Shown in pieces: positions 5,052-33,859 of a DNA stretch of 47,685 nucleotides. Below the pieces are notes generated by a model. It had not been told where the DNA came from and searched no databases. It saw only the letters and a program-made list of their open reading frames with translations. The stretch's first letter is position 1. The number at the start of each line of letters is the position of its first letter. Source of the stretch: a virus; the IMG/VR virus record IMGVR_UViG_3300026186_000003, positions 1-47,685 of that record. One strand, given 5' to 3'. The position numbers and the translations under genes are program-made.

Positions 5052-5534
5052 ATGGGGAAGAGTGATTATGTTGACAACAAGAAATTTTATCAAGAGATAG
5101 TAGAATATAAGGAATTAGTGGCTAGGAGTGCGGACTTGCCACCAGTACCAGAATATATTGCTAAGTGTTTTTTGGAAATTGCAAATGGATTATCATACAG
5201 GCCAAATTTTATCAATTATACTTACAAAGAAGAAATGATTCTGGATGGTGTAGAAAATTGTTTAAGATATTGCCTAAATTTTGATGGAGAAAAATCTAAA
5301 AATCCATTCTCTTATTTTACACAGATTATTTACTATGCATTTTTAAGAAGAATTGAAAAGGAAAAAAAGCAATCTTATATTAAAAACAAACTCACTTCTA
5401 ATTATGAGCATGTGGCTGATTCAAGTGTCAAAGTCTATTATGATGACGATTTGATTAATGATTTTGAGCGAAAAATAGAAGAACGAAAACAAACAAAAAC
5501 CAATGAAAATAGCTTGGAGAAATTTATAGAATGA
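5052..5534 (+). CDS. gp55: Late transcription sigma factor gp55
   Basis: A 160-residue protein (T4 gp55: 185 aa). It replaces sigma70 on host RNA polymerase and recognises the TATAAATA late box. The diagnostic region is present: EEMILDGVENCLRYCLNF, then KNPFSYFTQIIYYAFLRRIEKEKK, equivalent to the sigma2-like polymerase and -10 binding parts. The protein ends SLEKFIE, a short hydrophobic tail like the sliding-clamp-binding peptide by which T4 gp55 contacts gp45. Ribosome site GAGGGAG lies at 5041-5047; the stop overlaps the gp47 start by 4 bp. Confidence 0.92.
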   Translation: MGKSDYVDNKKFYQEIVEYKELVARSADLPPVPEYIAKCFLEIANGLSYRPNFINYTYKEEMILDGVENCLRYCLNFDGEKSKNPFSYFTQIIYYAFLRRIEKEKKQSYIKNKLTSNYEHVADSSVKVYYDDDLINDFERKIEERKQTKTNENSLEKFIE

Positions 5535-9197: not shown

Positions 9198-10070
9198 ATG
9201 ATGAAAAATATTGAAGTTAAACCTGCTTTAAAATGGGCTGGGGGTAAAAGGCGACTGATACCCGATATAAGAAAATATTACAAAGAGATAAGACCTAAAA
9301 AATACATTGAACCCTTTTTTGGCGGAGGTTCTGTTTATTTTGATATAATTAAAACATTTGGTATTGATTATAAGAACCGTTCAATCATAAATGATGTAAA
9401 TACAGATTTGATTGAGATGTATAGGAATATAAAATCTTTTCCCCAAGAAATTATATTTAATTGCAAAGAACTTGAAAAGGATTATTACAAATATAACTAT
9501 TATTATATCAGAGATAGGTTTAATGGAATAGATAGGGAAAAAAATGCGGTAGAAAGATATGAAGGAATAATTCGTTCTTCTGCTTTAATTTTACTAAATA
9601 GAACTTGTTTCAATGGTTTGTATAGGATTAATGGTAAAGGATTATTCAATGTTCCCAAAGGGAGCTATAAAAACCCTAGAATAGTCGATGAAGAAAATTT
9701 ATACAAACTTTCTTCATTACTTCCAAATATTGAAAATATTAGAAATACTGAGTTTGATAAAATAGAAGAAGTAGAAGGGGGTGATTTGGTTTATTTTGAT
9801 CCACCATATCATCCATTGAATGAAACATCATCATTTACATCTTATAGTGGTTTATTTGGCAGAAAGGAACAAATCAGATTGAGAGATTATTATAAGGAAC
9901 TTAATGAGAAAGGTGTTTATGTTATATTATCCAATTCTTCATCTCCCTTTATAAAGGAAATTTATGATGAATTTAATATAGTTGAAGTTTATTGCAGTAG
10001 AAGTATAAGTAGCAAATCTAATAAAAGAGGAAGAATTCCTGAGTTTCTTGTAGTTGGTGATAAATTATGA
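9198..10070 (+). CDS. dam: DNA adenine methyltransferase, Dam/D12 class (first of two)
   Basis: A 290-residue N6-adenine methyltransferase. The AdoMet site is seen in KWAGGKRRL (about residues 12-20) and EPFFGGGSVYFD (about 36-47); the catalytic motif IV is DPPY in LVYFDPPYHP (about 199-208). The internal LNRTCFNGLYRINGKGLFNVP segment is typical of Dam proteins and shapes the target-recognition region; GATC is a likely but unproven target. P2 puts transcription at or within a base or two of ATG 9198 (a second ATG is at 9201), so the mRNA appears leaderless. The 3' end overlaps the next methyltransferase (ATGA). Confidence 0.93.
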   Translation: MMKNIEVKPALKWAGGKRRLIPDIRKYYKEIRPKKYIEPFFGGGSVYFDIIKTFGIDYKNRSIINDVNTDLIEMYRNIKSFPQEIIFNCKELEKDYYKYNYYYIRDRFNGIDREKNAVERYEGIIRSSALILLNRTCFNGLYRINGKGLFNVPKGSYKNPRIVDEENLYKLSSLLPNIENIRNTEFDKIEEVEGGDLVYFDPPYHPLNETSSFTSYSGLFGRKEQIRLRDYYKELNEKGVYVILSNSSSPFIKEIYDEFNIVEVYCSRSISSKSNKRGRIPEFLVVGDKL

Positions 10071-10918
10071 TTAGTTACATTGGTGGAAAAGCTCGGATGG
10101 CCAAGTGGATAATCGAGTACATTCCAAGAGATATTGAAACATATGTAGAAGTGTTTGGTGGCGCCTATTGGGTTTATGTCAACAGTGACGTATACACAAT
10201 ACCACGAACTGTTGTATATAATGATTTTAATAGGTACATGGTGAATTTGTTTGAGTGTTGTAGGAATCCACAAAGATTTTATGATTCTATGCAAGAGATA
10301 GAAGCTCAAGATGAAGAATTGTTTTATCAATTCAAGAAAGAGGTATTTGAAGATAATGATGTAAACGATGTGGTACTTGGTGATATGGAATTTGCTATGA
10401 AGTATGCATATATTGTTACACAAGTGTTTTCAGGATTGAATCCAGAGAAGGGTAAGTTTATAGATTTAAGAGGCAAGTATAATTCAAAATTTGATGCTTT
10501 TAGGAATAGGTTACTGAAACCACTGGTACAAGAGAAGCTGAAAAAGATTAGTGCTTGTGAAAATCTTGATTACTCAGAAGTGATTGAAAAGTATGATAGT
10601 CCGTCTACATATTTTTATACTGATCCGCCTTATTGGAAAACAGAGAATTACTATTCTCTGCATGATTTTGATAGGGATGATCATGAAAAATTGTGTAATC
10701 AATTGAAAAATATTAAAGGTAGATTTGGCCTGTCATATTATGATTTTGATTTGTTGGGCCAGTGGTTGCCTGAAGATGAGTACGTTTGGGAGCGTAAAGA
10801 ATTTGCAAAAGCAGCGTCAGCGCGAAAGAAAGTCAAGCAGAACAAAGGGGAGGAATTGCTAATTATGAATTATGAGATCGAGGATTACAATTTAGAGAAA
10901 TTTTTTAAAGATGGCTAA
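10067..10918 (+). CDS. Second D12-class DNA adenine methyltransferase
   Basis: A 283-residue methyltransferase of a different subgroup from its neighbour. Motif X/I are SYIGGKARMAKWI and YVEVFGGAYWVY near the N-terminus; motif IV is YTDPPYW (about residues 185-191). The specificity segment is unlike Dam, so a different recognition sequence is likely. It overlaps the upstream gene by 4 bp and shares promoter P2. The C-terminus, YNLEKFFKDG, resembles the clamp-binding tails of gp55 (SLEKFIE) and gp43 (SLEGFFG), suggesting it could ride the replication clamp; that is inference. Confidence 0.88.
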   Translation: MISYIGGKARMAKWIIEYIPRDIETYVEVFGGAYWVYVNSDVYTIPRTVVYNDFNRYMVNLFECCRNPQRFYDSMQEIEAQDEELFYQFKKEVFEDNDVNDVVLGDMEFAMKYAYIVTQVFSGLNPEKGKFIDLRGKYNSKFDAFRNRLLKPLVQEKLKKISACENLDYSEVIEKYDSPSTYFYTDPPYWKTENYYSLHDFDRDDHEKLCNQLKNIKGRFGLSYYDFDLLGQWLPEDEYVWERKEFAKAASARKKVKQNKGEELLIMNYEIEDYNLEKFFKDG

Positions 10919-11551: not shown

Positions 11552-12091
11552 ATGGGATACAGTAAAAGATACGGTTTTTATTTCACAGATAGGAAAGATT
11601 ACGACAAGCAACGTTGGGCCCTTGCGAAACCGATTAAGAGAAAATCCAATGGTGTAAAATATTCTAAAGCTTATAATTTTCATTACACTGATAGAAAGGA
11701 TTATGAGAGACAGAAGTGGTTGGTGAGAAAATCGCGCCAAGAAGGAAAAGAACAGCCAATTGCAATTGGAAAACTTGATAACGTATTATTTGAGCAATCA
11801 AATGTCAATGAATTTGATATGAGTAAATGGGATAAGTTATTAGAGGATTTGGGGAATTATGTTAAAGGTAAAGAAAAGGGTAATTACTATGGTGATGATA
11901 CAGTTCAAGTGGTTGACCTATTGAGGTCATCAGATGATTTAGATAGTTTTTGTCGTGGCAATGCGATAAAATATATTATTAGAGCAGGTAGAAAAGCTCA
12001 AATGAGCGAGCTAGATTTATTTAAGGCCATTCATTACATTTTAATCATGATATTGGAGAATGAAGATGCAGATAAGCAGACAAACAGTTGA
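11552..12091 (+). CDS. DUF3310 domain protein with two N-terminal TDRxDY repeats
   Basis: A 179-residue protein. Residues 111-172 fit the phage DUF3310 family (YYGDDTVQVVDLL, then GNAIKYIIRAGRK and DLFKAIHYILIMILE), a small helical domain of uncertain, possibly nucleotide-related, role. Residues 1-20 (MGYSKRYGFYFTDRKDYDKQ) and 35-54 (VKYSKAYNFHYTDRKDYERQ) are two copies of the motif that also starts the upstream endonuclease VII-like protein. ATG 11552 follows GAAAGGGA and lies downstream of P3. It overlaps the clamp gene by 26 bp. Confidence 0.75.
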   Translation: MGYSKRYGFYFTDRKDYDKQRWALAKPIKRKSNGVKYSKAYNFHYTDRKDYERQKWLVRKSRQEGKEQPIAIGKLDNVLFEQSNVNEFDMSKWDKLLEDLGNYVKGKEKGNYYGDDTVQVVDLLRSSDDLDSFCRGNAIKYIIRAGRKAQMSELDLFKAIHYILIMILENEDADKQTNS

Positions 12092-12749
12092 GATATTAAA
12101 GAATTTTTCAACAATTAACCCATCAATTTTAGTAAAGCCAGGTAGTGAGATTCAGACAATTTCAACTATGAAAAATATTTTGGCTAAATCAGCAGTAACA
12201 GAGGATTTTATCAATGAATTTGCTATTTATGATTTACCAGAATTTTTAAATTTGGTTACGAGTGAAACCTTTTTAGGCGGGGAGTATACATTCAATGAAG
12301 ATTTTGTATCCTTGGAAAAGGAACGAGCGCAATCTACATATTATTATGCTGATCCATCTACCATTGTTTCGCCACCAGCAAAGCCAATATCAATGCCTGA
12401 TATTGAAATTGAGTTTGATTTGAAAGAACCAGATCTAGCTACTATTCGGAATATGAGTTCGATTTTGGCTAATCCAGATTTAGTTGTTAAAAGTGAAGCA
12501 GGAAAAGATATTATAGTTTCTGTGTTGGATAAAAAAGATCCAACATCAAAGGTATTCAATCTTAGGGTAGGTGATGGCAATGGCGATACCTTTACTATGT
12601 ATTTTAAGAATGAAAATCTTAAGCTTATGAAGGGTAACTATAAAGTATCTATTTCAAGCGAGGCTATTAGTAAGTTTTGTCATGAAGATATTGATTTGAC
12701 TTATTGGATAGCTCTTGAACCAGATTCTATATACAATGGAGAAAAATAG
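12066..12749 (+). CDS. gp45: Sliding clamp gp45
   Basis: A 227-residue protein, matching T4 gp45 (228 aa) in length and in its position immediately before gp44 and gp62. It forms the trimeric ring that tethers gp43 to DNA and, with gp55, activates late promoters. The start MQISRQTVEILKNFSTINPSILVKPG is the family pattern. ATG 12066 is chosen over 12060 because GGAG at 12055-12058 is correctly spaced only for the former. The start lies inside the end of the DUF3310 gene. Confidence 0.88.
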   Translation: MQISRQTVEILKNFSTINPSILVKPGSEIQTISTMKNILAKSAVTEDFINEFAIYDLPEFLNLVTSETFLGGEYTFNEDFVSLEKERAQSTYYYADPSTIVSPPAKPISMPDIEIEFDLKEPDLATIRNMSSILANPDLVVKSEAGKDIIVSVLDKKDPTSKVFNLRVGDGNGDTFTMYFKNENLKLMKGNYKVSISSEAISKFCHEDIDLTYWIALEPDSIYNGEK

Positions 12750-14082: not shown

Positions 14083-14477
14083 TAGAACAATTAATTGAAG
14101 TTGTATTAGATCAGCCCGATGATTTTTTAAAAATTCGTGAAACACTCACCCGCATAGGCATATCATCCAGAAAAGAACAAGTATTGTATCAATCTTGCCA
14201 TATTTTACATAAAAGAGGTAAATATTATATAGTGCATTTTAAAGAATTGTTTGCTTTAGATGGTAAACCAACAAATTTTTCAACGAGTGATGAAGGTCGT
14301 AGAAATACGATATCGAATTTATTAGAAGAATGGGAATTAGTAACAATTGTAAATGGAGATACTAAAACAAATGTAGTTCCATTGAATCAAGTAAAGATTT
14401 TGACTTTTTCAGAAAAAGATGATTGGGAATTGATACCTAAATACAATATAGGCAAAAAGGCGAATTATATAGAATGA
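14079..14477 (+). CDS. regA: RegA translational repressor
   Basis: A 132-residue protein matching T4 RegA (122 aa): the pattern IRETLTRIGISSRKEQVLYQSCHILHKRGKYYIVHFKELF is characteristic. RegA binds ribosome-start regions of early mRNAs and blocks their translation, including clamp genes in T4. It overlaps gp62 by 4 bp and gp43 by 4 bp, keeping the T4 order 62-regA-43. Confidence 0.95.
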   Translation: MIEQLIEVVLDQPDDFLKIRETLTRIGISSRKEQVLYQSCHILHKRGKYYIVHFKELFALDGKPTNFSTSDEGRRNTISNLLEEWELVTIVNGDTKTNVVPLNQVKILTFSEKDDWELIPKYNIGKKANYIE

Positions 14478-16948
14478 ATGGTTTTTATACCAGTGTAGAA
14501 GTTTTAGGCGATAATGTACTGGTTAGATATGTAGATGGTGATAAGCGTGATTCCTATGAGGAAGAATTTTATCCAACCCTATTTTTCCCTACCAAAAAAC
14601 AAACAAAATTCAGAACCTTAAATGGTGCACCAGTTGACAAGATCAAGCCAGGCAATATAACAGAATGTCGCAGAGAGCGTGGCAAGTGGAAGAAGAACTA
14701 TAACATAGAATTGCATGGTTTGTCAGATTGGAATATTCAATACATTGGCAAAGAGTTTGAAGATTGTCAATATGATTTTTCTAAAATCAAAGTAATGAAT
14801 ATCGATATTGAAACTGGTTCTGAAAATGGATTTCCTAATGTCAAAGAAGTCAGAGAAGAAGTGATTTCAATTACATTAAAGGATAGCATCACTAATAAGT
14901 TTGTAGTACTTGGCAGAGAAGCATATTCAAATAGCAGAGAAGATGTTTATTACATTCATTGTGCAGATGAGAGTACATTGTTGTCTAAGTTTTTAGATGT
15001 TTATAAAGCAATTGATCCAGATGTCATCACAGGATGGAATGTCAGATTTTTTGATATACCATATTTGGTTAGGCGAATTGATAAAATTTTAGGAGAAGGG
15101 AATTCCAAAAAACTTTCGCATTGGAATTTTATCAAGGAACGAAATGTTATAATGAATAATCGTGATAACATTACTTATAAATTGTTGGGTGTATCTACAT
15201 TAGATTACATGGAGTTGTATAAAAAATATACTTACTCAAATCAAGAAAGTTATAGGCTACAGCATATAGCAGATGTAGAATTAGGTGAAGGTAAATTATC
15301 ATATGAGGAATATGGTAATCTGCATAATCTATACAAAGAAAATTATCAAAAATTTATAGATTATAATATCAAGGATGTTGAATTAGTTGACAAATTAGAT
15401 TCAAAGTTGAATTTATTAGAACTTATCATGACACTGGCTTATACAGCTGGTTGTAATTATGAGGATGTTTATGGTCAAACTAGATTTTGGGATTACATAA
15501 TTTATAATCATTTACGAAAACAAAACATAGTTGTGCCTTCAAAAGATGAACGAGAACGAAAGAAGGATAAAGAATTTGAAGGTGCATATGTCAAGAATCC
15601 AATAACAGGTATGCATGATTGGGTAGTTTCTTTTGATTTAGCTTCATTGTATCCACATTTAATTATGCAGTATAATATTTCACCTGAAACATTTTTGAAT
15701 ACTAAGAATGATGTAGACATAGATGAATTAGTTCAAGGTAATATGAAAATTACCAAAAAGAAAGAATCATGTATGGCTGCTAATGGATATCATTTTTCAA
15801 CAGTCAAGAAGGGATTCTTGCCACAACTAATGGAGAATATGTATAATGAACGTGATTTAGCTAAAAGAAAAATGCTAGACTTGCAGAGGATAGGTGGTGA
15901 CAGTGAAGAAATTTCACGGCTTGATACTTTGCAAATGGCCATGAAGATTGCATTGAATAGTGCATATGGCGCTATGGGTAATCAGTATTTTAGATATTTT
16001 GATATTCGATTATCGGAGGCCATTACCAAATCTGGGCAATTGTCTATTAGATGGATAGAACGAAAGTTGAATGAATATCTAAATAAAATATTAAAAACAG
16101 AAGATGGAGATTATATAGTTGCATCTGATACAGATAGTGTTTACTTGACAATGGGATTGCTTGTTGAAAAATGCTTAGGAGATGTAACTGATAAAAATCG
16201 CATCATTAATTTTTTAGATAAAATTTCTGATAGTGAAATTCAACAATACATCAATGAAAGTTTTCAAGAGTTGTTTAGATATATGGGGTCATATCAACAA
16301 AAGATGTCGATGAAGCGAGAAGTTATCGCTGAAAAAGGGATCTGGACAGCAAAGAAACGATATGTATTGAATGTATGGGATAATGAAGGTGTCAGGTATC
16401 CAAGTCCAAAGATAAAAATTATGGGTATTGAGGCTGTTCGTAGTTCTACACCACAAGCATGTAGAGCTAAAATCTTAGAGTTGATGGAAGTTATAATGGA
16501 AGGTACAGAAGGTGATGTTATAGATTATATTGCAGATTTTAGGGATGAATGGAGTGATTTGCCAGTTGAAAATATTTCATTTCCAAGAAGTGTTAATAAT
16601 TTAGACAAGTATCATCATTCAGTTTATGGATATATTAAAGGTACGCCAATACAGGTAAGAGGTTCTTTATTATACAATAGACTTTTGGATGAAAATAATT
16701 TATCAAGTAAATATGAGAGAATTCAAAATGGTGAAAAAATAAAATTCACTTATTTGAAAGAACCAAATTCTTTGCATGATAATGTGATTGCTTATGTCAA
16801 TACATTGCCAAAAGAATTTGGATTGAATAAATATATAGACTATGATTTACAATTTGAAAAATCATATATTGATCCGATTAAAACAGTTTTAGATGTGATC
16901 GGATGGAAACATGAAAAAACATCAAGCTTAGAAGGCTTTTTTGGATAG
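14474..16948 (+). CDS. gp43: Family B DNA polymerase gp43
   Basis: An 824-residue polymerase (T4: 898). The 3'-5' exonuclease motif DIETGS lies near residue 112, exonuclease II in ITGWNVRFFDIPYL, polymerase motif A DLASLYPHL near 390, motif B KIALNSAYGAMGNQYFR, and motif C DTDS near 551-554. It ends SSLEGFFG, the clamp-binding peptide position of T4/RB69 gp43. There is no sign of an intron or homing-gene split, which are common in this gene. Confidence 0.98.
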   Translation: MNGFYTSVEVLGDNVLVRYVDGDKRDSYEEEFYPTLFFPTKKQTKFRTLNGAPVDKIKPGNITECRRERGKWKKNYNIELHGLSDWNIQYIGKEFEDCQYDFSKIKVMNIDIETGSENGFPNVKEVREEVISITLKDSITNKFVVLGREAYSNSREDVYYIHCADESTLLSKFLDVYKAIDPDVITGWNVRFFDIPYLVRRIDKILGEGNSKKLSHWNFIKERNVIMNNRDNITYKLLGVSTLDYMELYKKYTYSNQESYRLQHIADVELGEGKLSYEEYGNLHNLYKENYQKFIDYNIKDVELVDKLDSKLNLLELIMTLAYTAGCNYEDVYGQTRFWDYIIYNHLRKQNIVVPSKDERERKKDKEFEGAYVKNPITGMHDWVVSFDLASLYPHLIMQYNISPETFLNTKNDVDIDELVQGNMKITKKKESCMAANGYHFSTVKKGFLPQLMENMYNERDLAKRKMLDLQRIGGDSEEISRLDTLQMAMKIALNSAYGAMGNQYFRYFDIRLSEAITKSGQLSIRWIERKLNEYLNKILKTEDGDYIVASDTDSVYLTMGLLVEKCLGDVTDKNRIINFLDKISDSEIQQYINESFQELFRYMGSYQQKMSMKREVIAEKGIWTAKKRYVLNVWDNEGVRYPSPKIKIMGIEAVRSSTPQACRAKILELMEVIMEGTEGDVIDYIADFRDEWSDLPVENISFPRSVNNLDKYHHSVYGYIKGTPIQVRGSLLYNRLLDENNLSSKYERIQNGEKIKFTYLKEPNSLHDNVIAYVNTLPKEFGLNKYIDYDLQFEKSYIDPIKTVLDVIGWKHEKTSSLEGFFG

Positions 16949-16957
16949 GTGATAAAT

Positions 16958-17551
16958 ATGAGAGTGCATGAACTAGCAAAAGAATATAAAATCAAATCAA
17001 CAGATTTTGTTGATATAGTACAGAGTTTCGGCGTTAATATCAAAAGCCATTTGAATTCTTTAGATGAAGCTCAAATAGCGGATATTAGATTCAAAATGAA
17101 TATGAAAGATCATTCCAAGAAAGCCGAGTTGTTGTCTGAGGAAGAAATTGAAGAACTCAATCCTTTGGGTAATATCACACCAGAAGAAACTGTAGTTACT
17201 GATTGGGTAAAGGTTGAGGAAGAATTGAATCAAGCTCATGAAAAATCAGAAAAGATAGAAACAGAAATTAAAGAAACCCTTTCAGAGATGAAAAATTCAG
17301 ATTCTATTGATCCATTAGTTGATGAAGGTGATCCAGCACCAGCTTCTTCTGTTGTTACTAAGACAGGAGAAACCGCAGACGAATGGAATACAAGGAGAAC
17401 GGAAGAAATTGCGGAAGAAAATGATTTGATAATAAAGCGAGAACAAGAATCAGAAGAAATTAGGAAACATGCTGAGACATATAAGCGAGATCAGGTTGTG
17501 AAAATGGAAAGATCTGGTTTTTGGGGATGGCTAAGAGGATTTTTTGGTTAG
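16958..17551 (+). CDS. Protein with translation initiation factor IF-2 N-terminal domain
   Basis: A 197-residue protein. Residues 1-48 (MRVHELAKEYKIKSTDFVDI, then GVNIKSHLNSLDEAQI) match the small IF2_N domain at the start of bacterial IF-2. The rest is acidic, low in hydrophobics and probably flexible, ending in an aromatic tail GFWGWLRGFFG. It is not IF-2: there is no GTPase domain. ATG 16958 follows GGATAGG; GTG 16949 is an alternative. It sits between polymerase and uvsX in the replication block. The tail resembles clamp-binding ends in gp43 and gp55, so it may bind gp45, conceivably as a transcription co-activator like T4 gp33. Role unknown. Confidence 0.7.
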   Translation: MRVHELAKEYKIKSTDFVDIVQSFGVNIKSHLNSLDEAQIADIRFKMNMKDHSKKAELLSEEEIEELNPLGNITPEETVVTDWVKVEEELNQAHEKSEKIETEIKETLSEMKNSDSIDPLVDEGDPAPASSVVTKTGETADEWNTRRTEEIAEENDLIIKREQESEEIRKHAETYKRDQVVKMERSGFWGWLRGFFG

Positions 17552-17559
17552 GAGATTAA

Positions 17560-18627
17560 ATGACAGATTTTTTAAGTGCATTAGTTAAAGATTTAGGTGA
17601 TGAACATACTACTATAGCTGCCGATAGGAAATCTTCGGCAGAGTATAGTGGTACAATTGATACAGGTTCTTATGCACTAAATGCTTTGTTCTCTGGTTCA
17701 ATTTATGGGGGTGTGCCCAATAATAAGATTACTGCCTTGGCAGGAGAAAGTGCAACAGGTAAAACATATTTTGCTTTGGGCTTGGTCAGGCGATTTTTAG
17801 AAACCAACGAAGGTGGAGGTGTTGTCTATTTTGATACAGAATCGGCTGTAACTGCAGATATGATGGAGCAAAGGCAAATTGACATCAATAGAGTTATTAA
17901 ATCTGAACCAGATACTATACAAAAGTTTAGGCATACTGTACTTACTATTTTAGACAATTATACTGCACAAGATGTAGAAGAACGTAGGCCAATGATGCTA
18001 GTTTTAGACAGCTTAGGTCAATTGTCATCCACTAAAGAAATGGAAGATAGTATTGCAGGTGAAGAAACAAGGGATATGACAAAGGCACAGCTACTGAAAG
18101 CTACATTCCGAGTATTGAACTTGAGATTAGCTAAAGCTGGTGTGCCTTTGATTGTATGTAATCATGTCTACGAAAAAGTTGGATCTTATGTACCAATGAA
18201 AGTAGCGTCAGGTGGATCTGGATTAACTTATTCAGCTTCGACCATTGCCATGTTGAGTAAAAAGAAAGAGCGAGAAGGTACTGATGTTATTGGTAATATC
18301 ATTAAAGCTAAAATGCACAAATCCAGATTGTCAAGAGAAAATAAAGAAGTAGAAGTTTTATTGACATATGATAAAGGATTAGATAGGTATTATGGTTTAA
18401 TTGATTTAGCAATTGAAGCCAAGATATTAAAGAAATCAGGAAATAGAATAGAGTTACCTGATGGGGCTAAGCAGTACGCAAAAACCATATACGAAAATCC
18501 AGAAAAATATTTTACATCTGATTTAATGGAGAAGATTGAAGAATATGCAGCTGCAGAATTTACATATGGTGGTATTCCAATTGAAGAAGAATTGGAAACG
18601 GAGATAGAAGAAGAAGAAGATGTCTAA
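17560..18627 (+). CDS. uvsX: UvsX RecA-like recombinase
   Basis: A 355-residue RecA/UvsX family ATPase (T4: 391). Walker A is GESATGKT (residues 62-69), Walker B region is MMLVLDSLGQL, and GGSGLTYSAS is the family loop. It performs homologous strand exchange and works with UvsY, gp46/47 and UvsW found elsewhere in the window. GGAG at 17551-17554 gives a ribosome site; the end overlaps gp41 by 8 bp. The C-terminus is very acidic, as in RecA. Confidence 0.96.
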   Translation: MTDFLSALVKDLGDEHTTIAADRKSSAEYSGTIDTGSYALNALFSGSIYGGVPNNKITALAGESATGKTYFALGLVRRFLETNEGGGVVYFDTESAVTADMMEQRQIDINRVIKSEPDTIQKFRHTVLTILDNYTAQDVEERRPMMLVLDSLGQLSSTKEMEDSIAGEETRDMTKAQLLKATFRVLNLRLAKAGVPLIVCNHVYEKVGSYVPMKVASGGSGLTYSASTIAMLSKKKEREGTDVIGNIIKAKMHKSRLSRENKEVEVLLTYDKGLDRYYGLIDLAIEAKILKKSGNRIELPDGAKQYAKTIYENPEKYFTSDLMEKIEEYAAAEFTYGGIPIEEELETEIEEEEDV

Positions 18628-20102: not shown

Positions 20103-22133
20103 ATGTTAAGATATAGACAATTTTTACTATCGGAAATGACAGCTGATCAAGAAACTGATATCATTAGTACCTTTATATCTACAGCTAAAAACCATAATAT
20201 ACCATTAGAAAATGTACTAGTATGGATAGAGGCTGATTTGAATCCAACTACATCAGTTAATATTTCAGCATCAAATATATCTTTTAGGAAAGGTAAAGAT
20301 AGAGTGAAACAGATGGGAACATCTGGTTCTTCATTTAATCTTTTGAAATTATCTTCTGCCAATGACTTTTGGCCCAATTTACTTAAAAAAATAAATGACC
20401 CAGATAAAGAACTTTCTCAAAATGATAAAGCTCTATTATCTTTGTTGTGGTTGATTCAAAATAAACCAGATGTTCCTATAGTTTCTTATCAAGCATCAAA
20501 ATCTGGAGCAGGTGGTGATAAAACAAAGGGTAAATTAGCTAATGCGACACCTTTGTTTGAGCAGGTAGCTGCAGCTGCATTTAGATTAGCTGATAATGAT
20601 GTAGTATCTTTACCAGATGACAACACTGAATTGATAAATTTGATCAGAGGTGTAATGGATGCCGGTTATAAAAATACCGATAGTGGTGGAACTAAATTCA
20701 CTGATGAAAATTGGAATTATTACACTGAACAAACTGGACAAGTAAGGAAAGCTGCGCAAGGATCATTTAATTTTATCAATCAGTATGGATTAAAACCTGG
20801 CAATATGGAAATAATTTGGTCAGATATGAAACCATATTATTATGCTAAAATGAGATCTTATAAAAAATATGCTGTTCCTAACAAAAAAGAGAATACAGCT
20901 GATATGGCCATACTATTTGGTGGTTTGGATATAGGAACATTATTCGGAGAAGATTATCATATTTCCAATGAAACAGAAGATGGATATTTAGAAGTTATTA
21001 ACGTAGAAGATAATAGTCACGCCGGGTGGTTATTACAAGTTTCACTGAAGATTGGAAAAGAAGAAGCTCAAGTAGGAAAATCTGGAAAAGATTATCAGCC
21101 TTATTCATCTATAATTGATCCAAAAACAAAGAAGAAAGTAAGTAGGAAAGCTCTTACTTTACAAGGACTTAAAAAAATATTGAATTTGCATCATGATCCA
21201 ATTGATGAAGGATTTTTTGGCGATTTAGCTAAGTCAGCATATGGTTTTGTTAAACATTCGTTGGCTACATTGAAAAGATATTTAGATTGGACTATATCAA
21301 AATTATCCAATCTTCATGGAAAATTGATAAAAAAAATGTCTACAAGAAATGTCCTAAAACAGTCTAGTTCTTTATTGAGAACATATGCTAGAAGATTGAA
21401 TCTTAAAGAAGAATTTCTTGTAGAGAAAAAAATGAAAGATGAAGATATAGTGGATGCTGTTATGGCTGATTTCCGAGGCCCTGAAATGGTAACGGCAGGA
21501 GCCAATCATGCTTTAGATCAATTAAGAACAACACTAAACATAATAAAGAGAAATGATGAAAACAATAGATTTAAAATTAATATAATAAATAACTTGAGCG
21601 ATGATAGTTCCATAGGATTGGTAGCAGAAGATATTCGATATTTACTTTGTAATACAATTGCTTTTGAAACTTTGAATGAGTTTTATCGAAGTGTAATAAG
21701 AGAAAATGTACCAGATCAAGATGGTAATCTAAAAAATATACTTTCAGCTATAGCTGATTATACAGTGGATATGGGTATAACTACATTGATGGGTGAATCT
21801 TTACTACCTGTTCTCAAATTATATGGTGATTCAACGATTGGCGGTAGTGATTGGGAAGTACTACAAAGATCAGATGTGAAATATACTGATGCAAAAAAAG
21901 AGGCAGAAAAAGGTGCTATAGATATAGGTGGTATAGATATTGGAAGATCAATACAGAGTAAAACTAAAAAAGAGGGAATGGGATATTATACAGTACAACA
22001 AATTACATTGGCTAAGTATGAAAATGGTAAACCGACTTATAATAAAGTTCAATTAAGAACAGGTGGTAAGAGTGGAGGATTTGCCTTTTTCATTGAAGCA
22101 AACAAGCAAGTAAATGAGGTAAAGTTTAGTTAA
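20103..22133 (+). CDS. Large putative head-packaged protein, unknown
   Basis: A 676-residue protein that I do not recognise. It begins MLRYRQFLLSEM, resembling the T4 internal-protein capsid-targeting peptide with a possible gp21 cut after LSE11; a second candidate is KEEFLVEKK near residue 440. No membrane segment or catalytic motif is clear. A Gly/Lys stretch (SGAGGDKTKGK) lies near 140. It is driven by a late promoter and its stop overlaps the next start (TAATG), linking it to another candidate packaged protein. A virion role is therefore likely, but the activity is unknown. Confidence 0.7.
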   Translation: MLRYRQFLLSEMTADQETDIISTFISTAKNHNIPLENVLVWIEADLNPTTSVNISASNISFRKGKDRVKQMGTSGSSFNLLKLSSANDFWPNLLKKINDPDKELSQNDKALLSLLWLIQNKPDVPIVSYQASKSGAGGDKTKGKLANATPLFEQVAAAAFRLADNDVVSLPDDNTELINLIRGVMDAGYKNTDSGGTKFTDENWNYYTEQTGQVRKAAQGSFNFINQYGLKPGNMEIIWSDMKPYYYAKMRSYKKYAVPNKKENTADMAILFGGLDIGTLFGEDYHISNETEDGYLEVINVEDNSHAGWLLQVSLKIGKEEAQVGKSGKDYQPYSSIIDPKTKKKVSRKALTLQGLKKILNLHHDPIDEGFFGDLAKSAYGFVKHSLATLKRYLDWTISKLSNLHGKLIKKMSTRNVLKQSSSLLRTYARRLNLKEEFLVEKKMKDEDIVDAVMADFRGPEMVTAGANHALDQLRTTLNIIKRNDENNRFKINIINNLSDDSSIGLVAEDIRYLLCNTIAFETLNEFYRSVIRENVPDQDGNLKNILSAIADYTVDMGITTLMGESLLPVLKLYGDSTIGGSDWEVLQRSDVKYTDAKKEAEKGAIDIGGIDIGRSIQSKTKKEGMGYYTVQQITLAKYENGKPTYNKVQLRTGGKSGGFAFFIEANKQVNEVKFS

Positions 22134-23397: not shown

Positions 23398-24654
23398 ATG
23401 ATTGACACTTTGGATATTTTGCGTGATGACAGTAATATTTTATGGACTTTGATAGCAGCTTTTTTGGTATTTTTTATGCAAGCAGGATTTGCTATGGTAG
23501 AATCAGGATTCACCAGAGCTAAGAATGTATGTAATATCTTGATGAAAAACTTAATGGATATATCACTTGGTTCTATTATTTTTTGGTTGATTGGTTTTGG
23601 TCTGATGTTTGGTATCAGTAATGGTTATGTTGGAACTAATCTATTTTTGTTTGATGGTGGTAGTGAAGCAGCTAAGGCAACAGGTAATTCAGTTGGATTC
23701 AATTGGGCCTTCTTGTTGTTTCAAACAGTATTCTGTGCTACTGCTGCAACTATTGTCAGTGGTGCTGTAGCTGAAAGGACAAAGTTCTCAGCTTATTTGA
23801 TATATTCATTGTTGATATGTGGATTGATATATCCTATATTTGGATCATGGGCATGGGGTGGACTTTTTGCTGGTGGTGGATGGTTGGAGAATTTAGGCTT
23901 CTTGGATTTCGCAGGGTCAACTGTTGTCCATTCCATTGGTGGATGGGCTGCTCTAGCAGGTGCTATTGTGGTCGGTGCCAGAAAAGGTAAGTATGGTAAA
24001 GATGGAAAAATGAATATGATCATGGGTCATAATATACCGATTGGTGCGTTAGGGGTATTTATTCTGTGGTTGGGATGGTTTGGTTTCAATGCAGGTAGTA
24101 CAACCGCTGTCGGTGGTGATATGGCCTATATTGCTGTGACCACTAATCTTGCAGCTGCAGCTGGTGCATTGGCAGCTGGACTATTGAGTTGGTTTATATT
24201 TGGCAAACCAGATCCATCATTTGCACTAAATGGTGCACTGGCAGGGTTGGTATCAATTACGGCTGGATGTGATATCATGTCACCATCGATGGCTGTATTA
24301 ACAGGATTGGTAGGTGGATCACTTGTAATTGGTGCAATAATGTTATTTGATAAATTGAGAATTGATGATCCAGTAGGAGCTATTTCGGTACACGGAGTAT
24401 GTGGTGCTTGGGGTACTTTAGCCATTGGTCTATTCAGTAGTAAAGCAGGATGGACTCAATTAGGTATTCAAGCTGTTGGTGTTGGTGCAGCATTTATTTG
24501 GTCATTTGGATTAAGTATGATTATGTTTTTAGCTATTAAACATACTATTGGGATGCGAGTAGAAGAAGAAGAAGAAGAATTGGGATTAGATATATCAGAA
24601 CATGGTGTGTCGGGTTATGAGCCTATCACATCAACCATTTTAGATCATGTCTAA
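23398..24654 (+). CDS. amtB: AmtB-type ammonium transporter
   Basis: A 418-residue Amt/MEP/Rh-family channel, full length without obvious damage. About eleven hydrophobic segments are visible. Pore histidines are H178 (DFAGSTVVHSIGG) and H332 (ISVHGVCGAWG); the substrate-site acid D170, the WFGFNAGS motif (227-234) and the cytoplasmic C-terminal tail ending SGYEP (regulatory GlnK-contact region in bacteria) are all kept. It would sit in the host inner membrane and raise ammonium uptake. AGGAG precedes ATG 23398. It is flanked by late, virion-type genes, so it is a host-derived auxiliary metabolic gene. Confidence 0.97.
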   Translation: MIDTLDILRDDSNILWTLIAAFLVFFMQAGFAMVESGFTRAKNVCNILMKNLMDISLGSIIFWLIGFGLMFGISNGYVGTNLFLFDGGSEAAKATGNSVGFNWAFLLFQTVFCATAATIVSGAVAERTKFSAYLIYSLLICGLIYPIFGSWAWGGLFAGGGWLENLGFLDFAGSTVVHSIGGWAALAGAIVVGARKGKYGKDGKMNMIMGHNIPIGALGVFILWLGWFGFNAGSTTAVGGDMAYIAVTTNLAAAAGALAAGLLSWFIFGKPDPSFALNGALAGLVSITAGCDIMSPSMAVLTGLVGGSLVIGAIMLFDKLRIDDPVGAISVHGVCGAWGTLAIGLFSSKAGWTQLGIQAVGVGAAFIWSFGLSMIMFLAIKHTIGMRVEEEEEELGLDISEHGVSGYEPITSTILDHV

Positions 24655-31864: not shown

Positions 31865-33859
31865 ATGGAAACAAATTTAGAAGTATTGAGTGATTTAGTT
31901 CATCATATGAAATACGCAAAATACTTAGAAGGAAAGAACCGCAGAGAAACATTTGAAGAAACAGTGACAAGAAACAGAGATATGCATATTAAGAAATTTC
32001 CAGAATTGAAAGATGAAATAACAGATGCTTATCAATATGTGTATGAGAAGAAAGTAATACCATCAATGAGGTCGATGCAATTCGCAGGAACGGCCATAGA
32101 AGTAAATCCAACCCGTATGTTCAATTGTTCATATTTGCCTATAGTAGAACCCGGCGCTTTTTGGGAAACAATGTTCTTGTTGTTATCTGGTGCTGGAGTT
32201 GGATATTCAGTACAAAGGCATCATGTAGAACAATTACCTGAAATTAGGAAACCAATAAAATCAAGGCGTTATTTGATTCAAGATAGTATTGAGGGATGGG
32301 CTGGTTCAATCAAAGTATTGATGAGAGCATATTTTGATAATCGGTCATTACCATTGTTTGATTACAGAGCTATAAGAGAAAAGGGTGCACGTTTAGTTAT
32401 TAGTGGCGGGAAAGCCCCTGGCCCTGAGCCTTTAAAAGTATGCTTAAATGAATTACAAAGAATATTAAATTTAAAAATGGATGGGGATAAATTGACCCCA
32501 CTTGAATGTCATGATATGATGTGTATTATTGCTGATGCTGTACTGTCGGGTGGTATACGTAGATCTGCCTTGATTTCACTTTTTAGTATTGATGATGAAT
32601 CAATGTTGAATTGTAAATCCTTACATCGAGCTGAAATCGATGAAGTGATAGGCAAGGTAAATGGTAGCTATAATGTAAGTGTTAATGTATTTAGAGAAGA
32701 TGAAGTTTATGAACAAAAAAATGTATGGATACCAAAATCAGATTTTGATAAATTGAAAGATGAAAGTTTATTACAGTGGTATTATTTACATCCATATAGG
32801 GCTCGCTCTAATAATTCAATGGTAGTAGCCAGATCTCTAATCACAGAAGATGTATTCAAGGAAAAATGGGATGTCATTAAAAATTCGGGTAGTGGAGAGC
32901 CAGGTTTATATTTTACTAACAATGTAGAATTGGGTTCAAATCCATGCTGTGAAATTAGTCTTAATGCTAATCAATTTTGTAATTTGACATCTATCAATGT
33001 GGCTACAATAGAGAGTCAGCAAGATTTAGAAGAACGAACTAAAGCTGCTACTTTTATTGGTACATTACAGGCTTCATATACTGATTTTCATTATTTGAAA
33101 CCAGAATGGAAAAAAGTGACAGAAAAAGAATCTCTATTAGGTGTATCATTAACAGGCATAGCTTCGATAGATCATACTCAGTTTGATTTCAAAAGAGCTG
33201 CTGATATATCAGTCGAAGAAAATCAAAGAGTTGCAAAAAAGTTAGGTATTGGTTCAGCTAAAAGGATAACTTGTATTAAGCCAGAAGGTACGGGAAGCTT
33301 GGTTTTGGGTACTAGCTCAGGTATACATGCTTGGCATAATGAACACTACAATCGTAGAATTAGAGTTGGCAAAAATGAAGCTATATATCAATATCTTGTA
33401 GGTACTAATCCTGATATAATGGAAGATGAAGTATTTGGAAATAATGCTGTTATTACAATTCCAATTAAATCACCAGCTGGGTCAGTCACTAGAACAGAAG
33501 ATGTTAAAGATTTGTTGCAACGTATTAAGTATTTTCATGAAAATTGGATACAGCCAGGTCATAAAAAAGGAATGAATACGCATAATGTATCAGCCACAAT
33601 ATCTATCAAACCAGATGAATGGGATGATGTGGCTGATTGGCTTTGGCAAAATCAAGATTCATTTAATGGATTGTCATTTTTGCCATATGATAATGGAAGT
33701 TATGTACAAGCACCATTTGAGGATATCACAGAAGGTGATTATGAACGAAATGTTATAAATATATCAAAGATTAATCTTGAAGATGTGATCGAGATTGATG
33801 ATAATACAGATTTGCAAGGAGAACTTGCTTGTAGTGGAGGCTCATGTGAGATAACATAA
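31865..33859 (+). CDS. nrdJ: Adenosylcobalamin-dependent (class II) ribonucleotide reductase
   Basis: A 664-residue monomeric ribonucleoside-triphosphate reductase type. Markers: FNCSYLPI (active-site Cys, about residues 90-97), SGGIRRSALISLF, NPCCEISLNANQFCNLTS (about 358-375, radical Cys region) and the C-terminal redox pair CSGGSC. It is somewhat shorter than the roughly 740-residue Lactobacillus type. It makes dNTP precursors and needs host or environmental vitamin B12. GGGAG lies upstream; its stop overlaps the next start by 1 base. Confidence 0.9.
   Translation: METNLEVLSDLVHHMKYAKYLEGKNRRETFEETVTRNRDMHIKKFPELKDEITDAYQYVYEKKVIPSMRSMQFAGTAIEVNPTRMFNCSYLPIVEPGAFWETMFLLLSGAGVGYSVQRHHVEQLPEIRKPIKSRRYLIQDSIEGWAGSIKVLMRAYFDNRSLPLFDYRAIREKGARLVISGGKAPGPEPLKVCLNELQRILNLKMDGDKLTPLECHDMMCIIADAVLSGGIRRSALISLFSIDDESMLNCKSLHRAEIDEVIGKVNGSYNVSVNVFREDEVYEQKNVWIPKSDFDKLKDESLLQWYYLHPYRARSNNSMVVARSLITEDVFKEKWDVIKNSGSGEPGLYFTNNVELGSNPCCEISLNANQFCNLTSINVATIESQQDLEERTKAATFIGTLQASYTDFHYLKPEWKKVTEKESLLGVSLTGIASIDHTQFDFKRAADISVEENQRVAKKLGIGSAKRITCIKPEGTGSLVLGTSSGIHAWHNEHYNRRIRVGKNEAIYQYLVGTNPDIMEDEVFGNNAVITIPIKSPAGSVTRTEDVKDLLQRIKYFHENWIQPGHKKGMNTHNVSATISIKPDEWDDVADWLWQNQDSFNGLSFLPYDNGSYVQAPFEDITEGDYERNVINISKINLEDVIEIDDNTDLQGELACSGGSCEIT

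Follow-up and report, generated by a model that had tools for sequence, protein, structure and literature searches.

A stand-alone IF-2 N-terminal domain with a conserved aromatic tail in the replication block of a clade of T4-type phages

A small gene lying between the DNA polymerase gene gp43 and the recombinase gene uvsX of a T4-type phage was found to encode the N-terminal domain of bacterial initiation factor IF-2 (IF2_N) as a free-standing head, joined by an acidic linker to a conserved aromatic tail. From the anatomy of this protein (domain, fold, clade, locus, constraint at both ends, and tail chemistry by calculation) we infer each of its partners, and the reading we favor, at a probability of about 35%, is that of a two-ended tether, in which the head would sit on NusA and RNA polymerase (RNAP), the tail would anchor to the membrane or to a phage partner, and Domain I of host IF-2 would be displaced as a side effect or as the main effect. 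Stand-alone phage IF2_N proteins with a Trp/Phe tail are absent from PHROGs and NCBIfam and were not found in the literature searched, and PADLOC, NCBIfam, and PHROGs searches returned nothing useful. The IF2_N domain itself is known; its deployment as a stand-alone phage protein with such a tail appears to be a new use.

The IF2_N gene, its locus, and its clade

The gene occupies positions 16958..17551 on the + strand of the window, the whole stretch of DNA analyzed (a 47,685-base IMG/VR virus record, itself a 47.7-kb fragment). It starts with ATG, encodes 197 residues, and is an open reading frame with co-located orthologs in 21 distinct relatives. The surrounding block is of the T4 replication type and runs gp55, gp47, gp46, gp45, gp44, gp62, regA, gp43, the IF2_N gene, uvsX, and gp41, with gp61 further on. 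Family searches assigned gp55, gp45, gp44, gp62, regA, gp43, uvsX, and gp41, confirming gp41 as well as the gp43 and uvsX neighborhood in which the original prediction had placed the gene; gp46, gp47, and gp61 were named by eye from sequence, and relatives show the same order. On the + strand lie the late sigma factor gp55 (5052..5534; phrog_234, E=3.7e-55), which has the clamp-type tail NSLEKFIE, the sliding clamp gp45 (12060..12749; phrog_223, E=4e-68), gp43 (14474..16948; phrog_262, 1052 bits) with the clamp-type tail SSLEGFFG, and, as the next gene downstream of the IF2_N gene, uvsX (17560..18627; phrog_97, E=2.7e-81).

The IF2_N gene starts 9 bases past the gp43 stop codon (TAG, 16946-16948) and ends 8 bases ahead of uvsX. 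A Shine-Dalgarno-like AGGTGA (16947..16952, + strand) overlaps that stop codon, and sites of the AGGTG/GGAGG type precede the gene in most relatives. Because of the tight spacing and the ribosome-binding-like site over the gp43 stop, the gene is most likely co-translated with those of the polymerase and recombinase. A longer form starting at a GTG at 16949 is unlikely, as every relative starts MRV or MRI.

Elsewhere on the + strand of the window are a full-length ammonium transporter gene (23398-24654; PF00909, E=6e-119), an auxiliary metabolic gene of the phage; a tandem pair of D12-class adenine methyltransferase genes (9198-10070 and 10067-10918) with a 4-base overlap; and an apparently B12-dependent (class II) ribonucleotide reductase gene (31865-33859). 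Open reading frames of 350 to 680 aa at 20103, 24728, 25785, 35197, and 38684 (+ strand) look similar by eye, with repeated wording and in some cases a common MLRYRQ start, and are possibly a multiplied family.

Searches of IMG/VR identified 21 distinct full-length family members, including the one in the window, ranging from 124 to 243 aa, in addition to a truncated member (L005) and a near-copy (L139) that came from the tail scan described below. Every member sits between gp43 and uvsX wherever the contig reaches. In a gp43 tree of 160 tips, all 21 gp43 sequences followed by an IF2_N gene formed one clade of uncultivated phages with support of 1.0, and the gene was present in 21/21 clade members with sequence beyond gp43 (one further tip, on a contig that stops 9 bases after gp43, cannot be judged). 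None of 105 T4-like loci outside the clade, all with sequence past gp43, had it. On this tree the simplest history would be one gain and no loss, for a sample in which most members were found through the IF2_N gene itself; scans started from gp43 returned several clade members, none of which was shown to be without the gene. Judged by gp43, the closest isolates are marine cyanophages, which are about 50% identical. Retention of IF2_N alone, without a GTPase and within the replication block, in every sampled clade member with sequence past gp43 suggests that the domain is useful by itself.

The domain has been borrowed more than once, because it also occurs in two unlike settings. On an 81-kb viral contig, IF2_N (Pfam E=2.9e-10) heads a different protein of 131 aa (L122, 8001-8396) that lacks a Trp tail and has no gp43 or uvsX found nearby. 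In a bacterial RNase E/G-like protein named by eye (L160, 928-3723), IF2_N lies around residue 691, flanked by highly basic stretches, and this presence outside IF-2 suggests that the domain can act as a portable module.

The head, the linker, and the tail

The original prediction held that the first ~48 residues match IF2_N with the GTPase missing, and profile and fold comparisons bore this out at a level far above chance. The head (residues 1-48; 16958..17101, + strand) matched PF04760 over residues 1-43 with E=2.1e-8 and 34.2 bits, above the Pfam curated cut-off of 25.3, and five family members scored 28.2 to 45.0 bits. When the PDB was searched with a profile of 16 relatives, IF-2 chains were found at E=5e-6 and all others were no better than E=0.26. 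An AlphaFold2 (AF2) model of residues 1-56, built from 22 sequences (pLDDT 76), superposed over 56 residues on positions 4-59 of Thermus IF2 (4B44; Z 9.3, rmsd 1.3), and also on the N2 domain of IF2 (7UIU) with Z 6.0. M1, L6, A7, G25, K29, S30, H31, L32, and L35 are invariant across the 22 sequences. By curated cut-off and by its predicted IF-2 N-domain fold, the window protein belongs to the IF2_N domain family.

Several other identities for the protein were considered. It is not a bacterial IF-2, since it has IF2_N only and lacks the GTPase and C-terminal tRNA-binding domains: Pfam and other family searches found no GTPase, or any domain besides IF2_N, in the 197-aa protein, and most bacterial IF2_N relatives fetched whole do carry a GTPase motif. 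Domains of the pSK1 Par, RacA, and MerR types come next in the structure ranking (Z 6.5 and lower), and DNA binding by the head is unlikely because the head is near neutral, with a net charge of -3 to 0 across relatives. Recent capture from a host found no indicated source, the nearest bacterial relatives found (IF-2 of Firmicutes and Actinobacteria) being at most 48% identical. Head matches in cultured-phage records from Listeria, Staphylococcus, and Enterococcus (E about 1e-3 to 0.8), mostly short unannotated contigs, were set aside as apparent host IF-2 from contaminated assemblies.

Constraint on the protein is concentrated at its two ends. Over 210 pairs, mean pairwise identity reached 58% in the head and 57% across the last 12 residues but 17% in the linker, and in close pairs dN/dS was low in the head (0.00 to 0.31) and mostly higher in the linker (0.16 to 0.57), the values for the 12-residue tail being noisy. 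The linker (residues 49-186; 17102..17515, + strand) is acidic, as had been noted originally, with a net charge of -21 in the window protein and -9 to -48 in relatives, and an Asp/Glu content of 25 to 37% across relatives. It was mostly modeled with low confidence, AF2 pLDDT falling below 50 over residues 52-98, 108-125, and 127-138, and is probably disordered; the full-length model (pLDDT 56) was not good enough for fold searches beyond the head. Linkers of L008, L091 to L097, L100, L101, L114, L118, and L142 are mosaics of common short blocks (DDWTLGSGDTVVE, SFGQKAFAKAKAEE, SFDEY.DD, and ELNPLGN.T) that come and go independently of head type, which suggests recombination or short binding motifs.

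The aromatic tail GFWGWLRGFFG was also recognized originally, and it proved to be conserved in the relatives. It spans residues 187-197 (17516..17548, + strand), and the family consensus is G-[FVL]-[WFL]-G-W-[LFI]-[KR]-x-[LFI]-F, with the Trp and the last Phe (+5) each present in 21/21 members. When 2.9 million viral contigs were scanned blindly with a DNA pattern for the strict version G-F-W-G-W-[LF]-[KR]-x-[LF]-F, with Arg as AGR only, nine stretches matched, and all nine encode IF2_N proteins, including L142, whose divergent head had escaped the head searches. Head and tail thus appear to be one functional unit, because a scan blind to the head met only IF2_N proteins and both ends are conserved.

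Calculated properties of the tails gave a hydrophobicity of 0.74 to 1.18, a charge of +1 to +2 (a second calculation put the net charge of the tail at +1 to +3), and a lipid discrimination factor D of 0.63 to 1.26; by the same calculation D is 1.36 for MinD and 1.61 for FtsA. When 114 C-terminal 12-mers from the window and from a 67-kb relative were ranked by hydrophobicity, the two IF2_N tails took the top two places. The AF2 model places a helix at residues 188-196 with low confidence (pLDDT about 54), and a search of the PDB with the tail peptide found nothing. The C-termini of E. coli MinD and FtsA read KKGFLKRLFGG and RLNSWLRKEF, and those of relatives L097 and L100 are GFFGWFKGLFGG and GLFGWFKGLFGG. 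By these calculated properties the tail chemistry resembles an amphipathic membrane helix of the MinD/FtsA type.

Partners of the two ends and rival explanations

In E. coli, Domain I of IF2, whose folded part N1 spans residues 1-50, is both required and sufficient for binding NusA, according to pull-downs, in-cell photo-crosslinks, and a loss of nucleoid binding once the NusA C-terminus is removed (PMC12297416). This direct contact, which involves KH2/AR1 of NusA, was reported only in 2025, is known in E. coli only, and also involves IF2 residues 57-90, and its authors warn that the IF2 N-terminus and the NusA C-terminus are both not conserved (PMC12297416). No recognizable counterpart of residues 57-90 is present in the phage protein.

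As a tether, the protein would be made along with the replication genes, and its head would take the docking site used by N-terminal domains of host IF-2. NusA on transcribing RNAP would be the likeliest such site, because the head is free at its N-terminus before a flexible linker, as is E. coli IF2 Domain I, which alone binds NusA. The tail would form a short amphipathic helix, inserting in the inner membrane in the manner of MinD and FtsA or gripping a phage partner. Host RNAP and NusA on phage DNA would be held at one place, IF-2 Domain I would be pushed off NusA, and the length of the linker would be of little importance, as expected for a tether. This tentative reading draws on IF2_N being recognized by both sequence and fold, the two conserved ends about a variable linker, the linkage of head to tail, the single clade and locus, the NusA binding published for E. 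coli IF2 Domain I, the near-neutral head, the use of IF2_N outside IF-2, and the lipid-like D of the tail. Against it are the restriction of the known NusA contact to E. coli and the low model confidence of the tail; moreover, the conserved Gly and Trp in the tail could just as well reflect binding to one particular protein, and the Gly-Trp pair may serve such a partner. A wider proposal, which we consider unlikely, is that the IF-2 docking domain tethers NusA-bearing host RNAP, or else initiating ribosomes, at the membrane or the phage replication site, forming a phage-built center uniting replication, transcription, and translation.

The original prediction also offered a gp33-like co-activator acting on the clamp, and this part was not supported. 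The T4 ligands of the clamp, gp43, gp55, and gp33, carry C-terminal motifs that are hydrophobic, acidic, and very much alike (PMC2988020); in sequence these were confirmed as SLDFLFG, SLDFLYEAND, and TLDFLL, respectively. The IF2_N tail is spaced like the clamp-type tail of the phage's own gp43, with L at position -6 and F at positions -3 and -2 from the C-terminus, and the window protein equals that gp43 tail at five of six letters (LRGFFG versus LEGFFG). The residue after Leu, however, is Glu or Asp in 153/172 gp43 tails and in 0/21 IF2_N tails, and Lys or Arg in 1/172 and 16/21, respectively. Clamp tails have a D of at most 0.19, below that of every IF2_N tail, and the two groups are likewise fully separate in net charge and in hydrophobicity. 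A helix-turn-helix-loop-helix seen by eye in both proteins had suggested gp33 homology, an idea dropped when comparison of the head profile with 13 gp33s (hhalign) found no similarity (E 0.07 and 0.18 over 12 to 14 columns). The gp33 family, phrog_254, did not match the window protein in a PHROGs search, and the structure matches listed for the head model do not include gp33, an absence that excludes nothing. The prediction had correctly noted that no gp33 is seen in the window, and phrog_254 is absent from the 67-kb relative as well; yet in a 142-kb relative gp33 lies about 46 kb from gp43, a distance that these fragments do not cover, so nothing follows from its absence and it lends no weight to a gp33-like role. 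Identification of the IF2_N protein as gp33 or as a clamp ligand is therefore not supported by these sequence comparisons, although a weak or altered clamp contact by the tail is possible because of the L-x-x-F-F register it shares with the phage's own gp43 tail.

A factor with its tail on gp45 and its head on RNAP or NusA could still couple late transcription to replication. The full register (WLRGFFG versus SLEGFFG), the presence of gp45, gp55, and gp43 in the window, and the interchangeability of T4 C-terminal motifs on variable linkers (PMC2988020) fit such a factor. The clamp motif at the end of enteric, Aeromonas, and Acinetobacter gp33s is missing from marine ones (Cyanophage, Vibrio, and uncultivated: L106, L107, and L127 to L131), which would leave a place for another clamp arm. 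Any amphipathic helix would yield the same register, however, and with the residue after Leu, the D values, and the gp33 comparison all pointing away from such a factor, we judge this explanation improbable. A pure decoy, in which the head titrates NusA or another IF-2 partner from host IF-2 and the tail provides only stability or localization, is less probable again: the missing GTPase in an otherwise IF-2-like domain fits it, but the tail, which a decoy would not need, is conserved as much as the head. Competition of the head with IF-2 for its partners, as originally suggested, is in itself possible.

The head might instead occupy the 30S shoulder at 16S rRNA h16, like IF-2 N2, and steer or block initiation on host mRNAs in favor of phage mRNAs. 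N2, a domain similar to N1 and of the same fold as the head, sits on h16 in cryo-EM structures (PMC9192638, PMC12820379), and the head model superposes on it. However, the turn holding the h16-contacting residues (S277-V278-K279 in Pseudomonas, by our mapping phage residues 11-13) differs from phage to phage (KIK, DKK, GIS, and KVT), and an acidic linker behind the head is ill-suited to wrapping rRNA, making this role unlikely, if less so than a clamp factor or a decoy. The least probable of these explanations is a replication or recombination adaptor, whose head would mimic IF-2 at recombination intermediates and help UvsX strand invasion give way to replisome loading. The position between gp43 and uvsX is invariant, and E. 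coli without its only IF-2 isoform bearing the N-terminal Domain I is impaired in PriA-helicase-dependent restart (PMC3334882); in the Mu system, however, only truncated IF-2 forms without the N-terminal domain were active in vitro (PMC3334882), T4-type phages use their own factors to start replication, and gene order alone is weak evidence. If the head does bind NusA or 30S, the family would add a new phage strategy for redirecting host gene expression. The ~48-residue head offers a compact natural reagent for finding the partner of the IF-2 N-domain.

Comparison with known systems

The closest known counterpart is the IF-2 N-domain (PF04760; E. coli IF2 Domain I/N1 and the Thermus IF2 N domain), which is like the phage head in sequence, in predicted fold, and in having a free N-terminus followed by a flexible linker; Thermus IF2 also has the conserved K-S-H segment of the phage head. 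Unlike bacterial IF-2, the phage proteins (124 to 243 aa) carry an acidic linker and a Trp/Phe tail in place of the GTPase and tRNA-binding domains. The RNase E/G-like protein resembles them in using IF2_N as a module outside IF-2, but is a large enzyme whose flanking stretches are basic rather than acidic. T4 gp33 is likewise small and joins a helical domain through a linker to a hydrophobic C-terminal tail, whereas the IF2_N protein has no profile similarity to it, lacks the acidic S/T-L-D/E signature in its tail, is encoded elsewhere, and takes its head from IF-2. The membrane-targeting helices of MinD and FtsA are, like the IF2_N tail, at the extreme C-terminus, short, amphipathic, basic, and hydrophobic. 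These proteins are unrelated to the phage family, and the Gly-Trp pair and the Gly/Ser polar face of the IF2_N tail are not MinD features, the likeness being one of calculated properties.
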